Positions 685 to 22,529 of a stretch of 39,755 bases of DNA are shown in pieces. Source of the stretch: a virus; the IMG/VR virus record IMGVR_UViG_3300035181_001567, positions 1-39,755 of that record; one strand, 5' to 3'. The notes beneath the pieces were generated by a model that searched no databases, was not told the origin of the DNA, and saw nothing but the letters and a program-made list of their open reading frames with translations. Position numbers and translations under genes: made by a program. Each line of letters starts with the position of its first letter. The first letter of the stretch is position 1.

Positions 685-1797
685 TCAGTTAGACCTGCCC
701 ATGATCGCGGCGTAGGTCTTTTCCAGGGTTTCGTCGAGACTGCTGGACTTCGGCGCCGTCGGGCTACCGCTTCTCACAGTGGTTCGGACGTTTGCGCCCA
801 TCGCCTTTTTGGCTTTGGCCGCAGCTTCGGCCGCTTTGCGAGTCCGTTCCGACTCAGCTTCAGCAGCACGCCGAGCTTGCTCTTTCTCCCGCGTGACAGG
901 GTTCGCCCACATGGCCTTTTCGTAGGCTGCCCCGATGTCTTTAACGACGCCACTTCGCAGAAGCGCGGCGATGTCATCGGCGAGTTCTGCGAAGTAAACG
1001 TTTTTCGGGTCGCTGGCGAACGCTTCGACGGTTTTGCGGATTTCGGCCTGTTTGGCCTGCGCCGCATACCGATCTTGCGCGGTCAAACGGGATTCTACGG
1101 CAGCGAGTTTTTCACGCAAGGATTTAACTTCGGGGTCCACGAATGGTTCGACATTGTCCAGCGCGCCCCCGGTGAGCTGGGCGAGCAGCTTAGGGACAGG
1201 AATGGCGTAGTCCTTGATCAGTTGGCCGAGAAGGGACAGCTTTTGATCCTCTGAGCCAAGGGACAATGTGCCGTGGGCCTGAACCAAGCCGGGCAGGATT
1301 TGCTCCGGGCCGATACCAAGCTGCTGCATGACATGCTCGTATGGCTTGAAGAGTCCGTGAACTTGCCAGGCGAAGTTAGCGCCTTCCTTGTACTGCTCAA
1401 TGCCGGTGTACATGTCCTGCTCGCGCTTGTGGATTTCAGCGCGAACGGCTTCGGGCAGGGTAGACCAGGCGGCAGCGACTTCCTTGCGCCAGGTTTTTGG
1501 CGCCTGCGTCAAATCGGCAGTCGCTGGCGCAGGCGGCGTCGTAGGTGAGTCAGCCTTATCCCCCTCGCCCGGTTTGCTGCTAGAAGTCGCTTCAGATTGC
1601 GAACCGTCCTGCGCCTGCGAAGTAGCGTCCAAGTTGCCATCAGCGGCGGGAGAGTTAGCAGCGTCAGAAGGGCCATCGTCATCGTGAGCAGCATTTCCAA
1701 CTCCAAGACCCAGGCCGGACGCGATCTCGCTGACCGCGCCAGCCATATCAAAATCGCCAGTTGAGCTGGCGGGGGAAGTTTCAAGTTCCTCAGTCAT
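685..1797 (-). CDS. Capsid scaffolding protein
   Basis: This 370-residue protein has an acidic, Ser/Asp-rich N-terminus (about 1-90), a helical middle, a heptad-like region around residues 195-230 and a very Ala/Lys/Arg/Glu-rich helix near 285-330. The C-terminal tail is basic and Ser-rich, as in scaffolds whose C-terminus contacts coat protein. It lies between portal and coat, the normal order. An upstream GTG at 1839 is possible, but the ATG at 1797 has AAGGAA eight bases ahead and avoids overlap with the next gene, so I chose it. A scaffold directs procapsid assembly and leaves before DNA packaging. There is no protease domain, so exit is probably without cleavage by its own product. Confidence 0.82.
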   Translation of the reverse strand: MTEELETSPASSTGDFDMAGAVSEIASGLGLGVGNAAHDDDGPSDAANSPAADGNLDATSQAQDGSQSEATSSSKPGEGDKADSPTTPPAPATADLTQAPKTWRKEVAAAWSTLPEAVRAEIHKREQDMYTGIEQYKEGANFAWQVHGLFKPYEHVMQQLGIGPEQILPGLVQAHGTLSLGSEDQKLSLLGQLIKDYAIPVPKLLAQLTGGALDNVEPFVDPEVKSLREKLAAVESRLTAQDRYAAQAKQAEIRKTVEAFASDPKNVYFAELADDIAALLRSGVVKDIGAAYEKAMWANPVTREKEQARRAAEAESERTRKAAEAAAKAKKAMGANVRTTVRSGSPTAPKSSSLDETLEKTYAAIMGRSN

Positions 1798-1807
1798 GTA
1801 ATGTTCC

Positions 1808-2236
1808 TTAAGTGATAGTGGGGGTTGCGCGCTCGACACTTATCCCAGCGCCAGCATCGAGTTCTTTTGCAAGCTGTTCTTGCTTGCTCGGGGGAAGTTG
1901 GGCGACAAACCGCGCTGCTGTTTCCCCTACAGATTCCAGGAAGGCTTCATCACGCGCTTTGGCGACCTTCTCAGCCTCCTGCCGCTCGCCATCTTCAAGG
2001 ACTCGGCAGCCGTGCTTACGGAGATTGGCTTCGTGCGCGGCGCGGCCCTCGATCCAGTCACCGGTTATCGGGCAGGTATAGCCAGCGTAATCCGGGCGGA
2101 CCATTGGGGCAACAAGCTGCCGGTTCATGGCAAAAGAGCACTTGAGGCAGTGCTCTACGCGATCGAGTTCGGCAACCTTTTTGACGATATCACGTTTGGC
2201 CGCACAGACAGGGCACTTGTAGACGTAAGTCGGCAT
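1808..2236 (-). CDS. Zinc-ribbon protein between portal and scaffold
   Basis: This is a 142-residue protein with a FmdB-like zinc ribbon at the N-terminus: CPVC at about residues 8-11 and a C-x2-C pair (CLKC) at about 30-33, then a further lone Cys pair region around 55-77. The C-terminal half is charged and helical. The start ATG lies one base after the portal stop, and the stop lies ten bases before the scaffold start, so it is co-translated with them. Proteins like this sit in the same spot in other podovirus-like genomes, but their role in the head is not known to me. DNA or protein binding is inference from the ribbon only. Confidence 0.7.
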   Translation of the reverse strand: MPTYVYKCPVCAAKRDIVKKVAELDRVEHCLKCSFAMNRQLVAPMVRPDYAGYTCPITGDWIEGRAAHEANLRKHGCRVLEDGERQEAEKVAKARDEAFLESVGETAARFVAQLPPSKQEQLAKELDAGAGISVERATPTIT

Positions 2237-2237
2237 G

Positions 2238-4442
2238 TCAGGGACCTTTCTTAGAGGCGCGCGGGGCTGGTGCAGCGGGGGCGGGCTTTGGCGTCATGGC
2301 TTGCTGCATTGCAGCAGCGTGCTTGGCGGCATTAAGTTCCCGCTGCATTTGCAGCTCTTCCATTCGGAATTCATGTTCCCTAGCGTCAGCCTGCATTTGC
2401 ATCTGGATTTTCTGCATGTCAGCGTTCGCTTTGGCAATCGCCGCCTGTGATTCCGCTGCAACTTGCTCCGGCGGAGGACCGCTCGGCGCACCGCCGGAGC
2501 CTTCAGGTTGCGGGGGTGGCGGCGCTTTCATGGCATTAATCTGATCTTCAATTTCCGTGCCGAATTTGAACTTCCGGCAGACGGTAAGCATGAGCGCCTT
2601 AGCCGCTTCGAAGGGGAGGATCTGCTGCTGGACCAATGGGCCGACTGATTGCAGGGTCTGGCCGAGTGCAGTCAAGGCATCCGTGATGTCTTGCTTGTCC
2701 TCCGTGGCTTCATCGTCGATCGTCGAGTTTGTCTCGATGTCGATTTTGTAGCTGCGTGTGAGGTCATCCTTGAGGGTTTGAAGGCACTGCTCGAAGCTAG
2801 GCATCTGCAGCATTGCCATGACATTCGGGTCGGGCTCGGGCGGCTGTACGGGCGGCTGGCCGGGCACTTGTGGCTGCATTGCGGCCGCCTGTTGCTGTTG
2901 TTGCAGCTGCATCTGCGCAATCTGCTTGTCTTGCTCGCTCGGCAGGTCGCTTTGCGTCATTGCCCGGATGCGCTCGGGCTGAAGTTTCGTAACAGCCAGC
3001 TCACCAAGCAACTGCAGGCAATCACGCACGTAACGCTGGACGAGTTTCTGGCTCCTTTTCAGTCGGAGAGTGCCCCATTGGTTCTTGATTTCCTGCGCGC
3101 CCAGCGTTTCCGATGCCTGCGTCGATCCACGCATGATATCGGCCAGGCCGGTGATTTCAAAAATGATTTGCTTAATCTGCTGGCGCTGGGTGTAGAGTTG
3201 TTGCAGGACCGGGACAATATCCTTAATCGGCATGAGCCAGATTGCGCGGTCGATGGACCCGTTTTGGGAGTACAGGACCGCGGAATCCTGCAGGGCGATC
3301 ATTGCGTTGTCTTCGGCTTCCAGGATTTTCGCCATCTCATCGACTGTGGAGTCGTAGGCGCCACGCAGCTTGCAGGCAACAATGAGCTTCTGGATGCGGA
3401 CGGTGATGCGGTTCAGCTCCTCCGACTGCTTCTGATACATCGTGTAAAGCAGTGTCGGGACAAGCGTCGACAGCCGCTGCATGAAGTTCAGCGGGCGGGG
3501 GCAGGGGAAGAAACCGCGGAGTTGCAGCGGATCTTCGACAGGATCCTTGAGGTACTGAGCGGAAAATTCGGAGTAGAAATAGACCTTTCCCTGCCCCTTG
3601 TGCCACAGTTCGTAGACAGGGATAAGGCTGAGATTGCGGACTTCCCTGGCTTCGATAGCTCCGGTCCCGTCGGGCTTACCAGCGTCATTGACAGTTCTAT
3701 CGGACGTATCCGAAGAGCCGTAAGCGCTTCGCAGTTTCTCCATGTCAACTTTGGCGTCGGGGAATTGCTCCTTGAACTCTTCCATCGTCATCAGATGGAT
3801 GAATCCAACCCAAGGGACGTCTTTCCAGTACTTGGCATAACCGTGGAGGAAGTTGTTCCAGGGAACCTGCTCACCATACACACATTCGTAAGTGATTTCC
3901 TCCGGGGCAGCGCCTTCGGAGTCGGTTTCCTGGGCGCCGGGTTCTTCGCCACTCTCGACGGGTTCCTGCGCTTCCCCGCTTTCAGCCTTGGCCAATTCCG
4001 CATGGTACTTGAACCGGACAAGCCCGCGACTGACCAGCAACGCCGATAGAGTACTGTCACTCATCAGCTCATCGAAAGTGGCGTAGCCAGGCTCTTCGTT
4101 TTGCAGTAGGTAGGTCAACAACCGCTGCATGAGGTTGGCGGAGCACTTTGCCAGAAGGTCATCGTCGCCCTTGAAGCGCCGGGTGACTACCGGGCGCGGG
4201 GTACTGTTGTACAGCGCTGGCTGCATGGTATCGACATTGCTGTACAGGATATTGTACTGCTCTGTTTCCTTGCGGATGCCTTCGTAAATTTCGATGACAT
4301 TGACAGCGTCTTTGCGGTAGCCTTCCTCCCGCTCGGCGGCCGCCTGGATTTCATTCTTCCAGTAGTCTAGGGAAAGCTCTTCCGCATCGGCTGTGGGTTT
4401 TGCGCCGTCGGCTTCAGCTGCGGCTGCGGTAATCGTATTCAT
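2238..4442 (-). CDS. Portal protein
   Basis: The protein has 734 residues, the size range of P22-type portals. It sits directly downstream of the large terminase and upstream of scaffold and coat. Residues 1-150 are acidic and helical (YWKNEI, YRKDAVNVIEIYEG). The middle contains the portal-like stretch around QKQSEELNRITVRIQK and a segment near residue 390-470 including DIMRGSTQASETLGAQEI that is typical of podovirus portals. The C-terminal 200 residues are Gln/Pro/Ala-rich with a long helix, suitable for a barrel reaching into the head. The ATG at 4442 has AAGGAA five bases ahead. It forms the dodecameric DNA channel at one capsid vertex and docks the terminase. Confidence 0.9.
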   Translation of the reverse strand: MNTITAAAAEADGAKPTADAEELSLDYWKNEIQAAAEREEGYRKDAVNVIEIYEGIRKETEQYNILYSNVDTMQPALYNSTPRPVVTRRFKGDDDLLAKCSANLMQRLLTYLLQNEEPGYATFDELMSDSTLSALLVSRGLVRFKYHAELAKAESGEAQEPVESGEEPGAQETDSEGAAPEEITYECVYGEQVPWNNFLHGYAKYWKDVPWVGFIHLMTMEEFKEQFPDAKVDMEKLRSAYGSSDTSDRTVNDAGKPDGTGAIEAREVRNLSLIPVYELWHKGQGKVYFYSEFSAQYLKDPVEDPLQLRGFFPCPRPLNFMQRLSTLVPTLLYTMYQKQSEELNRITVRIQKLIVACKLRGAYDSTVDEMAKILEAEDNAMIALQDSAVLYSQNGSIDRAIWLMPIKDIVPVLQQLYTQRQQIKQIIFEITGLADIMRGSTQASETLGAQEIKNQWGTLRLKRSQKLVQRYVRDCLQLLGELAVTKLQPERIRAMTQSDLPSEQDKQIAQMQLQQQQQAAAMQPQVPGQPPVQPPEPDPNVMAMLQMPSFEQCLQTLKDDLTRSYKIDIETNSTIDDEATEDKQDITDALTALGQTLQSVGPLVQQQILPFEAAKALMLTVCRKFKFGTEIEDQINAMKAPPPPQPEGSGGAPSGPPPEQVAAESQAAIAKANADMQKIQMQMQADAREHEFRMEELQMQRELNAAKHAAAMQQAMTPKPAPAAPAPRASKKGP

Positions 4443-9695: not shown

Positions 9696-9735
9696 AACTA
9701 CTCCCTAACGTCCGCTAGCTACTTCCCAGCCAGCC

Positions 9736-9936
9736 GATGTCGAGGGGATCGTTTGTTTGTCACCCCCCCGCGTACCCTCTCGTGGGTGAGTCGATTTTCG
9801 CGGGATAGTCGAGGCTAGTCGATTTTCGCGGGATAGTCGGGGCTAATCTATTTACTCGGAATAACCCGTTTTTTTTTTTTAAGCCTCCCGCGAAGGGTAC
9901 GGGCGGGGGTGATATGTAAACGATCCCCTCGACATC
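9736..9936. repeat. Large imperfect palindrome, origin-like
   Basis: The left arm (about 9736-9782) starts GATGTCGAGGGGATCGTTT; the right arm (about 9889-9936) is its reverse complement over those 19 bases, then matches again in TCACCCCC and GTACCCT with a few differences between. The 106-base centre holds the tandem repeats at 9789 and twelve T at 9869-9880. The T tract is a rare AT-rich island in a GC-rich genome. Confidence 0.75.
9789..9867. repeat. 28-bp tandem repeats (iteron-like)
   Basis: Two adjacent 28-base copies (9789-9816 and 9817-9844) differ at one base; the core is GTCGATTTTCGCGGGATAG. A third, degenerate copy (ATCTATTTACTCGGAATA) follows at about 9846-9863. They lie in the loop of the large palindrome. 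Only three adjacent copies with no spacers exist, so this is not a CRISPR array. Confidence 0.75.
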
Positions 9937-10003
9937 CCCTGGTTATCCAGTAACCAACCCGCCCTAACTCGCGTTGGGTTTCGAAGATATCGAGTGGAGC
10001 TGG

Positions 10004-11631: not shown

Positions 11632-11672
11632 TCAGGCTCCGGCCTGTTGACACCCCGGAAAGACGGGGAGGA

Positions 11673-11707
11673 CCCCCAGCAGGAATGTCTCCCCTGCTGG
11701 GGGTTTT
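11673..11707 (+). terminator. Rho-independent terminator
   Basis: An 11-bp perfect stem, CCCCCAGCAGG (11673-11683) with CCTGCTGGGGG (11693-11703), is followed by TTTT. It ends the 11041 unit. Confidence 0.9.
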
Positions 11708-11735
11708 CTCTTGGTGGCGCGGAGGTAAAACTGGG

Positions 11736-19593: not shown

Positions 19594-20040
19594 ATGTTCA
19601 ATCCCGATCAGTTCCTGCAATCCGCCACCACTGAAGCCAACGATACCAAAAAAGTCCCCTGCCCGGTCGGCGAATACATCGCCGTTGCGGAAAAGGTTGA
19701 AGCCCGCCAGTGGCAATCCAAAGACGGCACGAAGTCCGGCATCGCCCTGGACATCACCTGGTCCATCGACGACCCGTCCGTCAAGGAAGTCGTCGGCCGC
19801 GACAACGTCCAGGTCCGTCAGGGCCTGATGCTCGACCTGCTGGAATCCGGCGGCCTCGACATGGGCAAGGGCAAGAACATCGCCCTGGGCCGTGTCCGCG
19901 AAGCCGTTGGCCTGAACACCCCGGGCCAGCCGTTCTCCCCGAGCATGATCCAGGGCCGTACCGCCAAGGTGACTGTCTCCCATCGCGTTGATGGTGAGGA
20001 TATCTACGACGAGATTAAGAAGGTCGCGGCGTTGAGCTGA
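19594..20040 (+). CDS. Single-stranded DNA-binding protein candidate (DUF669-like)
   Basis: The protein has 148 residues. The pattern VPCPVGEYIAVAEKVEARQW, then GIALDITWSI, then a Gly/Asn-rich turn and GRTAKVTVSHRVDGEDIYDE is that of DUF669-type phage proteins, which often sit beside Sak4-like ATPases and have an OB-like beta fold. Codon use is strongly biased (GGC, CTG, ATC) like the 11041 gene, as for an abundant protein. It has its own promoter. The SSB role follows from the family and context, not from a motif. Confidence 0.75.
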   Translation: MFNPDQFLQSATTEANDTKKVPCPVGEYIAVAEKVEARQWQSKDGTKSGIALDITWSIDDPSVKEVVGRDNVQVRQGLMLDLLESGGLDMGKGKNIALGRVREAVGLNTPGQPFSPSMIQGRTAKVTVSHRVDGEDIYDEIKKVAALS

Positions 20041-20316: not shown

Positions 20317-20598
20317 ATGCGGCCTTTCGCCCTTTTCCTTTTTCTACCACTCGCCGCCTGCCAAAGCCTCCCGATGGATATGTCCAAAATGTCCGCGGAC
20401 CAAATCCGTGAAGCGGTCAAAGACAAATCCGTCCTCGCTGCCTGCGCCAGCGGCAAGACCGCAGCCGGCAATCTAACAACCGTGAGCGTGTCCGCTGATC
20501 AAGTCAAGCAGTTGTCCGGCAGTGTCACCATCGACACTGACTGCAAGACCGTTATCACGAATAGCTCTGCGCCGGCGCTGCCGGTGCCCTCCAAGTAA
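20317..20598 (+). CDS. Phage-encoded lipoprotein, 93 residues
   Basis: Signal peptide MRPFALFLFLPLAAC with lipobox LAAC and acceptor Cys15. Residue +2 is Gln, which would send it to the outer membrane in enterobacteria-like sorting. The mature part (78 residues) has two Cys (AACASG, DTDCKT) that could form a disulfide. It is in the early arm, so it is not a lysis spanin by position; phage lipoproteins of this kind often block superinfection, but that is inference. Two structured non-coding segments follow it. Confidence 0.75.
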   Translation: MRPFALFLFLPLAACQSLPMDMSKMSADQIREAVKDKSVLAACASGKTAAGNLTTVSVSADQVKQLSGSVTIDTDCKTVITNSSAPALPVPSK

Positions 20599-20621
20599 CT
20601 AAACATCCCCCGAAGGGGGTT

Positions 20622-20742
20622 GAAAGGGCAGGGAACACTCCTGCCAACGGAGTCTGGCTAACAGGGGATGGTTTGGGGAAGACCCGACCGCTTCGAAGTA
20701 TCCTGTAAGCCGGATGACTAGGGACTTGTTCCCTGCCCTTTC
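20622..20742 (+). ncRNA. Candidate structured non-coding RNA, 121 nt
   Basis: A closing stem of 16 perfect pairs joins GAAAGGGCAGGGAACA (20622-20637) to its complement (20727-20742). Inside are a CTCC/GGAG hairpin (20638-20652), a long helix CTGGCT+ACAGG+AT (20654-20669) with ATCCTGT+AGCCGG (20700-20713) broken by an A-A mismatch and a two-G bulge, and an apical hairpin GGTTTGGG/CCCGACC (20670-20689). Two pairs are G-U only if the plus strand is transcribed. No coding frame explains it. Family unknown. Confidence 0.65.
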
Positions 20743-20762
20743 CGCCACCTCGCAGTTGCCAG

Positions 20763-20842
20763 CCCTAGCAGCCGCGGACGCAACAACCGCAACGCCCTTT
20801 CCTCCCTGGGGCGTAAGCATTTGCTAGGGTTCTCTTGGTGGC
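20763..20842 (+). terminator. Long hairpin with a tail shared with the 11673 terminator
   Basis: CCCTAGCA (20763-20770) pairs with TGCTAGGG (20822-20829); a CGCCC/GGGCG hairpin lies inside. The following TTCTCTTGGTGGC (20830-20842) is identical to the bases after the 11673 terminator stem (11706-11718). It may end the lipoprotein/RNA transcript. The stem is short for its loop, so terminator function is uncertain. Confidence 0.4.
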
Positions 20843-21064
20843 CTTTTTATTCCGCGGTCAATCCGCTGGGCGATAGCCCGCATGAAAGGCACTTGCCCAT
20901 GCACGCAAAAACCCCGGGCGATTTAATCGCCCCATACGCCCCGCAACCCCTCGCGGGTATCGTACCCCCTCCCCGGGCATTCCGTCGCAATGGCGGGTCA
21001 TCCATGCCCCGGGACGGGCCACTCCCTCACCGGCCACCCTCCCGGCCATCCCGCATCCAAACCC

Positions 21065-21104: not shown

Positions 21105-22529
21105 ATGCACACCTGCCCCCTTGCCTCAGTCATCATCAAGCCAGACCGTCAGCGAACCGAATTCGACCCGACCGAGCTGCAAAACCTCAAGGACTCGATC
21201 GAATACCTGCCTGGCGAGCGCAACCGACAGTTGCTGCATCCGCCGGTCCTACGCCGGGAAGGTAATGACCTCGTGCTGGTAGCTGGCGAGCGTCGGCTCC
21301 GTGCAATCAAGGAAATTTTTGCTCTCGGCGGCAGCTTCATCTACAACGGCAAGATGTTCGATGCCGACAGCGGCATGATCCCCTTCTCCGATATCGGCGA
21401 GCTGTCGCCGCTGGAGGCGGAGGAAGCCGAACTCGACGAAAACCTCAAGCGGGTCAATCTGTCGTGGCAAGAGTTGGCGCAGGTGCACGCGAGGTTGCAC
21501 AAGCTCCGGACTGCCCAGCGGGATGCGGCTTCGCCGACCCCGCCGACTCCGCCGACCTCGCCATCCCAGAAAGGCGCCGACGAAGCCCCGGCCACCCCCA
21601 GACACACTATTGCTGATACCGCCCTCGAAGTCTTCGGCCGTTCCGATGGCGCCTACCAGGACACAATCCGCAAGGAAACGATCGTCGCGAAGCATCTCGA
21701 TAATCCAGCCGTCGCCAAAGCCAAGACTCTCGATGAGGCATTCAAGATTCTCAAAAAAGAGGAAGAGCGCAAGACCAATATCGCGCTCGGTCTGGAAATT
21801 GGCAAGACCTTCAACGCCGACAAGCACACACTAGTCCGCGCGAACTGCATCGAATGGATGGCGCAGCAACCGGCTGGGCAGTTTGATGTCATCTTGACTG
21901 ACCCGCCGTATGGCATGGGAGCGGATGCCTTTGGCGACGCTGGCGGTAAAATGACCGGCATCCAGCATCACTACGACGATAGCCACGAATCGTGGGCAAA
22001 GCTCATGGAAGGCCCCTCTGGCTGGTGCAGTCTCGCCTATCGCATCACCAAGTCCCAGGCCCACGCCTATGTTTTCTGCGACATCGACCGCTTCCACGAA
22101 CTCCGCGGCTACATGGTCGCGGCCGGCTGGGACGTCTTCCGCACTCCGCTGATTGTCCACAAGCTCAATTCTGGCCGTGTACCACGCCCTCAGCACGGAC
22201 CCCGTCGTCAATGGGAAATGATCCTCTACGCCATCAAGGGAGACAAACCTGTCACTCACATCTACCCCGATGTTATCCCAGTCAACGGCGACGACAATCT
22301 CGGCCACGGCGCCCAGAAACCCGTTGACCTGTATGTTAACCTTCTCCAGCGATCCGTCAAACCGGGTGATAGTATCCTCGACACCTTTGCCGGAACGGGG
22401 ACCATCTTCCCTGCCGCGCACACATTCAAGTGCGCCGCCACTGGTATTGAATTCGAGGAAGGCAGCTACGGCATTTGCGTCAAGCGACTCGCCGAACTGA
22501 AAAACCTCGACACCCCCGCAACTTTTTGA
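21105..22529 (+). CDS. ParB-domain/DNA methyltransferase fusion
   Basis: The protein has 474 residues. Residues 1-125 are a ParB/Srx-like domain with GERR at 61-64 and ENLKR near 113, the two CTP-contact boxes of ParB proteins. A Pro/Ser/Thr linker (about 140-165) follows. The C-terminal part is a methyltransferase: DPPYGMG at 266-272 (motif IV) comes before LDTFAGTG (F428, motif I), the beta-class order; DPPY favours N6-adenine. ParB domains fused to methyltransferases are known in phages and mobile elements. It may protect phage DNA from restriction or mark the origin. Confidence 0.9.
   Translation: MHTCPLASVIIKPDRQRTEFDPTELQNLKDSIEYLPGERNRQLLHPPVLRREGNDLVLVAGERRLRAIKEIFALGGSFIYNGKMFDADSGMIPFSDIGELSPLEAEEAELDENLKRVNLSWQELAQVHARLHKLRTAQRDAASPTPPTPPTSPSQKGADEAPATPRHTIADTALEVFGRSDGAYQDTIRKETIVAKHLDNPAVAKAKTLDEAFKILKKEEERKTNIALGLEIGKTFNADKHTLVRANCIEWMAQQPAGQFDVILTDPPYGMGADAFGDAGGKMTGIQHHYDDSHESWAKLMEGPSGWCSLAYRITKSQAHAYVFCDIDRFHELRGYMVAAGWDVFRTPLIVHKLNSGRVPRPQHGPRRQWEMILYAIKGDKPVTHIYPDVIPVNGDDNLGHGAQKPVDLYVNLLQRSVKPGDSILDTFAGTGTIFPAAHTFKCAATGIEFEEGSYGICVKRLAELKNLDTPATF

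Follow-up and report, generated by a model that had tools for sequence, protein, structure and literature searches.

A predicted fast-evolving structured RNA at the 3′ end of an early transcript in an uncultured phage

The window analysed here, a whole virus record of 39,755 bases, contains a 121-nt stretch downstream of its early genes, element B, which we conclude is probably a structured RNA, read from the plus strand and evolving fast, at the 3′ end of a transcript. It is real as a structure and new to the libraries searched; its function is something that we infer. The record encodes a portal, a terminase, an A-family polymerase, Sak4 and a primase/helicase, and by its polymerase the nearest annotated record is MW202489.1, an uncultured spring phage, at 71% identity. 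The features of the region are collected in Table 1.

Table 1. Features around element B, with positions in the window.
Feature	Position	Strand	Basis or remark
Lipoprotein ORF, 93 aa, lipobox LAAC	20317..20598	+	upstream of element B
Hairpin A, small and GC, CCCCC-GAA-GGGGG, no U-tract	20607..20619	+	directly 5′ of element B
Element B, structured RNA of 121 nt	20622..20742	+	z -6.0; most stable for its G+C; model match in L072
P1, 5′ strand of 16-bp closing helix	20622..20637	+	fold, shuffles, L072
P2, small hairpin CUCC-UGCCAAC-GGAG	20638..20652	+	two-sided changes at three pairs in L072
P3, long arm with A.A mismatch and bulge, apical hairpin 20670-20689	20653..20714	+	predicted fold
P1, 3′ strand of 16-bp closing helix	20727..20742	+	fold, shuffles, L072
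Element C, long terminator-like hairpin GCCACC...GGTGGC, then TTTTT	20744..20848	+	sequence
Element D, 21-nt bulged hairpin CATG-AAA-GGC-ACTT-GCC-CATG	20881..20901	+	covaries; precedes methyltransferase gene
DNA methyltransferase gene, ParB-like N-terminus, syntenic anchor	21105..22529	+	downstream of element B

The early genes upstream are Sak4, a small ORF (19594-20040) and the lipoprotein ORF, and the plus-strand order then runs through hairpin A and elements B, C and D to the methyltransferase and polymerase genes. Element B starts 23 nt past the lipoprotein stop codon (20596-20598), and hairpin C starts 1 nt after B ends. B itself is followed by CGCCACC and not by the U-tract of an intrinsic terminator, which comes after C. 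The two elements together (20622-20848) thus lie just past a stop codon and end at a terminator-like hairpin, the position from which 3′-UTR-derived small RNAs arise. Given the short distance to the stop codon, the lack of a U-tract of its own and the adjoining terminator hairpin, the simplest reading of B is a 3′-UTR element, and the free-standing non-coding RNA gene of the original prediction is unsupported. A coding explanation is likewise unsupported, since the sole notable overlapping ORF, on the minus strand (20599-20820), has no Pfam match. The lipoprotein ORF has no Pfam or PHROG match either, and a single relative of it was found, in locus L002. After that sole other copy of the gene, in a different gene neighbourhood, lies an 18-pair, 99-nt element (L002 5365-5463), which a model built on the window element does not match.

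The fold of B is exceptional by several measures. P1 consists of 16 Watson–Crick pairs that close a branched interior, and among perfect stems spanning 60–200 nt the maximum in 300 dinucleotide-shuffled windows is 14 bp. The folding energy of the element is -64.5 kcal/mol, whereas its dinucleotide shuffles fold at -40.2 ± 4.0 (z = -6.0, with none of 200 as low), and it is the lowest for its G+C when 121-nt stretches are taken every 20 bases on both strands of the whole window. The element is present as a single copy in its own genome. Other parts of the window fold well too, as they might if B were a chance structure of a G+C-rich intergenic region; with no shuffle of either kind reaching B, and with a compensated relative in the same slot (L072, below), we regard that explanation as already disfavoured and very improbable.

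The architecture originally described is confirmed. Besides the perfect closing helix of the 121-nt segment, the fold contains both the long arm with its mismatch and bulge and the apical hairpin, GGUUuGGG-GAAGA-CCCGACC. P2, the small hairpin, is absent from the minimum-free-energy fold but is supported by L072, in which three of its pairs have changed on both sides and the loop is similar. The two pairs said to work only as G-U on the plus strand are found at positions 34-91 and 52-65 of the element, where U-G would become A-C if read from the other strand. The minus strand of the region folds to -54.2 kcal/mol, about 10 kcal/mol weaker than the plus strand, and these observations together point to a structure formed at the RNA level and read with the plus-strand genes.

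The longest perfect stem in the window over the same span is not that of element B but one of 19 bp at 9736-9936. It belongs to a hairpin-forming inverted repeat much larger than B, with arms of ~49 nt that are 84% complementary and with internal direct repeats; it lies downstream of the 8736-9365 gene, and the region 9700-9970 folds with z = -8.3. In relatives, stems of 10–16 Watson–Crick pairs, some in low-complexity sequence, occur downstream of the counterpart of this gene. The repeat is a candidate for an origin, an early control region or an RNA.

What, then, occupies this place in other phages? Relatives were fetched by polymerase, methyltransferase, small ORF and Sak4 protein queries, and dozens of related uncultured phages share the gene order in which Sak4 and the small ORF precede the slot and the methyltransferase and polymerase genes follow it. 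Of 109 slots, 8 contain a stem of at least 13 bp, compared with none of 327 shuffled slots; the count characterises the slot rather than any single RNA family, since a few of these stems are terminator-type hairpins unlike B. Long-stemmed elements whose sequence is unlike that of B are found in L152 (17 pairs, 115 nt), L072 (19 pairs, 110 nt), L003 (17 pairs, 91 nt) and L226 (22 pairs, 83 nt), and others of differing sequence in L131, L126 and a six-member group, the alpha family; the long stem is thus retained in these relatives under replacement of the sequence. In several relatives, C or its equivalent directly adjoins the B-type element. In most, however, nothing beyond a plain terminator or short hairpin occupies the slot, and element B is therefore not essential to the phage group. 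The minus strand of the slot element folds equally well or better in some relatives. The slot also accepts other insertions: L004 has a tRNA-Tyr gene there (4021-4102), L072 and L214 show T-arm-like remnants, and L011 carries an HNH-like ORF.

Homologues of the exact element are scarce. Blastn found no match to the region among 50,697 phage records, and a 27-nt local match in L037 was rejected because it lies inside coding sequence. A covariance model built on the window element B sequence alone (R1) matches, besides itself, positions 1731-1834(+) of L072, inside the slot, with an E value of 0.03 in 563 kb, which is marginal. The same model misses L152 despite shared stem sequence, finds nothing over 72 further loci and, run over the whole virus records behind the loci, finds only the window, in a scan with a looser first look that also missed L072. 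The pattern AAAGGGCWG...CWGCCCTTT occurs in 32 stretches of viral contigs, among which only that in the L072 contig is a slot element. The L155 stretch has related genes around it and was set aside as not folding like B, and the remaining stretches look like chance.

L072 is thus the only homologue of the exact element detected. Between it and the window, in P1, 11 pairs are unchanged, three have changed on both sides and two have become G-U; in P2, three of four pairs have changed on both sides, and the loop is UGCCACU in place of UGCCAAC. This makes six two-sided compensatory changes in one relative, P3 being outside the comparison. A further two-sided change, in an internal arm, separates L131 from L013. 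The covarying pairs expected of an RNA are therefore present in L072 and, as described next, in the alpha family, with direct support for element B itself coming from L072 alone.

The alpha family (L011, L125, L127, L128, L070 and L133) was used to build a second covariance model (R2). Seven of 25 pairs have changed on both sides, over P1, P2 and P3, a result reached by none of 500 shuffles; conservation at unpaired positions is not significantly higher than at paired ones. Like B, these elements occupy the slot and have a long P1 and two arms, with a terminator next in most members; unlike B, their head has a large P2 and a small P3. R2 does not match the window element, even with filters off, and R1 likewise misses the alpha family, so that shared descent of the slot elements is unsupported. 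What unites them is where they lie, the long stem and the branching of the head.

These comparisons also bear on whether the pairing matters at the level of DNA, the RNA fold being a by-product of an inverted repeat that serves as a replication, recombination or protein-binding site or that came in with a mobile element. The repeat is perfect, its minus strand folds well too, the slot can take up inserts, among them the tRNA gene and HNH-like ORFs, and most compensatory changes are Watson–Crick, so that a DNA inverted repeat would be preserved equally. The non-Watson–Crick cells of the alpha family tell a different story, with 24 G-U against 3 A-C on the plus strand, which favours a plus-strand RNA over a DNA palindrome, although the cells are not independent because five of the six members are close. 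With the greater stability of the plus strand in the window, the single copy of B in the genome and nothing similar in the phage collection, we consider a DNA-level repeat improbable.

Elements C and D have features of their own. The loop TTTCCTCCCTG of C (20798-20808) and the motif GCAGTTGCC (20752-20760) recur in some relatives on differing stems, and the loop is complementary to the Shine–Dalgarno core. The loop UUUCCUCCCUG likewise sits on different stems in the window and in L129. In element D, compared over seven sequences, five of seven pairs have changed on both sides, all cells pair and the bulge AA is invariant; its pattern is found in 21 stretches among viral contigs. The string TTCTCTTGGTGGC follows a hairpin at two sites in the window, 11665-11725 and 20829-20842.

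We propose that element B is a plus-strand 3′-untranslated structure of the upstream early transcript, that of Sak4, the small ORF and the lipoprotein. The intrinsic terminator C, right after B, would end this transcript and leave the methyltransferase/polymerase unit separate. After transcription, P1 would close, and B and C would together form a compact double-hairpin 3′ end that insulates both units and shields the upstream mRNA from 3′ exonucleases. Cleavage could also free the segment of ~225 nt comprising B and C as a small RNA that persists and binds a partner through its branched head. A cis-acting 3′-end structure seems to us the most likely reading, with a released B+C small RNA a close second; to the proposal above as a whole we would give an even chance.

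As to the second of these, B might act in trans as a small RNA of ~120–230 nt processed from the 3′ UTR, its head or loops pairing with RNA or holding a protein. The candidate pairing loops would be UGCCAAC in B and UUUCCUCCCUG in C, with host or phage RNAs as targets. The branched heads and covarying internal arms among the slot relatives are in keeping with this, as are the likeness of the P2 loops in the window and L072, the presence of the same C loop on different stems in the window and L129, and the precedent of a phage non-coding RNA derived from a 3′ UTR (PMC8545117). However, the anti-Shine–Dalgarno-like loop of C has no perfect target elsewhere in the window, and pyrimidine loops of this kind show no enrichment relative to shuffles when all slots are taken together. 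On balance we hold a trans-acting role to be possible, though well short of an even chance. It is tempting to go further and see in the slot a new, very fast-evolving class of trans-acting phage RNA, in which a long stem next to a terminator carries an exchangeable, tertiary-structured head that is swapped between phages and aimed, for example, at a host RNA or a defence protein; this extended version appears rather unlikely.

The position of B just before C raises a third reading, a regulatory leader in which an aptamer-like or attenuator domain sets read-through of C into the methyltransferase and polymerase genes. The branched structure does adjoin the terminator directly, and by eye an alternative fold can be drawn, in the window and in L072, in which GGCAG of the 5′ strand of P1 pairs with CUGCC in P2. 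Yet P1 and C can form simultaneously in the window, so that no clear antiterminator is seen, and the presence of hairpin D after C, joined in some relatives by a TATACT-like -10 sequence, suggests a separate promoter for the downstream genes. That last point is softened by a search of the plus strand in this region of the window, which gave no sigma-70 promoter. We think a leader improbable and prefer the 3′-end structure described above.

To our knowledge, few structured RNAs have been described from lytic phages. A slot that keeps a long-stemmed RNA under sequence turnover would be a defined place for phage 3′-UTR RNAs in an uncultured group, and the covariation of the alpha family and hairpin D offer testable structures. 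Should B do no more than protect a transcript end, it would be part of ordinary phage gene organisation; it matters chiefly as a well-defined candidate.

How does B compare with known RNAs? In Rfam 15, neither the window nor 18 relatives have a match at the gathering threshold, in agreement with the original view that the element belongs to no recognised family. The best sub-threshold scores, to CRISPR-DR46 (25 of 50 bits) and PhotoRC-I (20 of 45 bits), were rejected for that reason. Nor is it a tRNA, as had been said: ARAGORN detects neither tRNA nor tmRNA in the window. The phi29 prohead RNA (pRNA) had been set aside as longer than and different from B; the length is a weak argument, since processed phi29 pRNA is ~120 nt long. 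In its length, paired ends and branched head the pRNA does resemble B; it is better excluded by the absence of a match of B to the pRNA covariance model in Rfam and by the gene for a terminase large subunit carried by this phage, which also has an A-family DNA polymerase. GOLLD and ROOL, structured phage RNAs whose function is unknown, are often found close to tRNA genes (PMC12286853), and a tRNA-Tyr gene occupies the slot of B in L004; they are, however, far larger than B, which has no match among Rfam families.

The nearest described parallel, in organisation and with no homology claimed, is the RNA from the 3′ UTR of PHIKZ298 in Pseudomonas phage PhiKZ, a ~100-nt RNA detected on northern blots, with two stem-loops of which the second is probably a terminator (PMC8545117). 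In B, which is predicted from sequence, the closing stem is much longer and the head is branched. Like that RNA, B lies right after a phage stop codon, places a hairpin before a terminator hairpin and is a candidate for processing.
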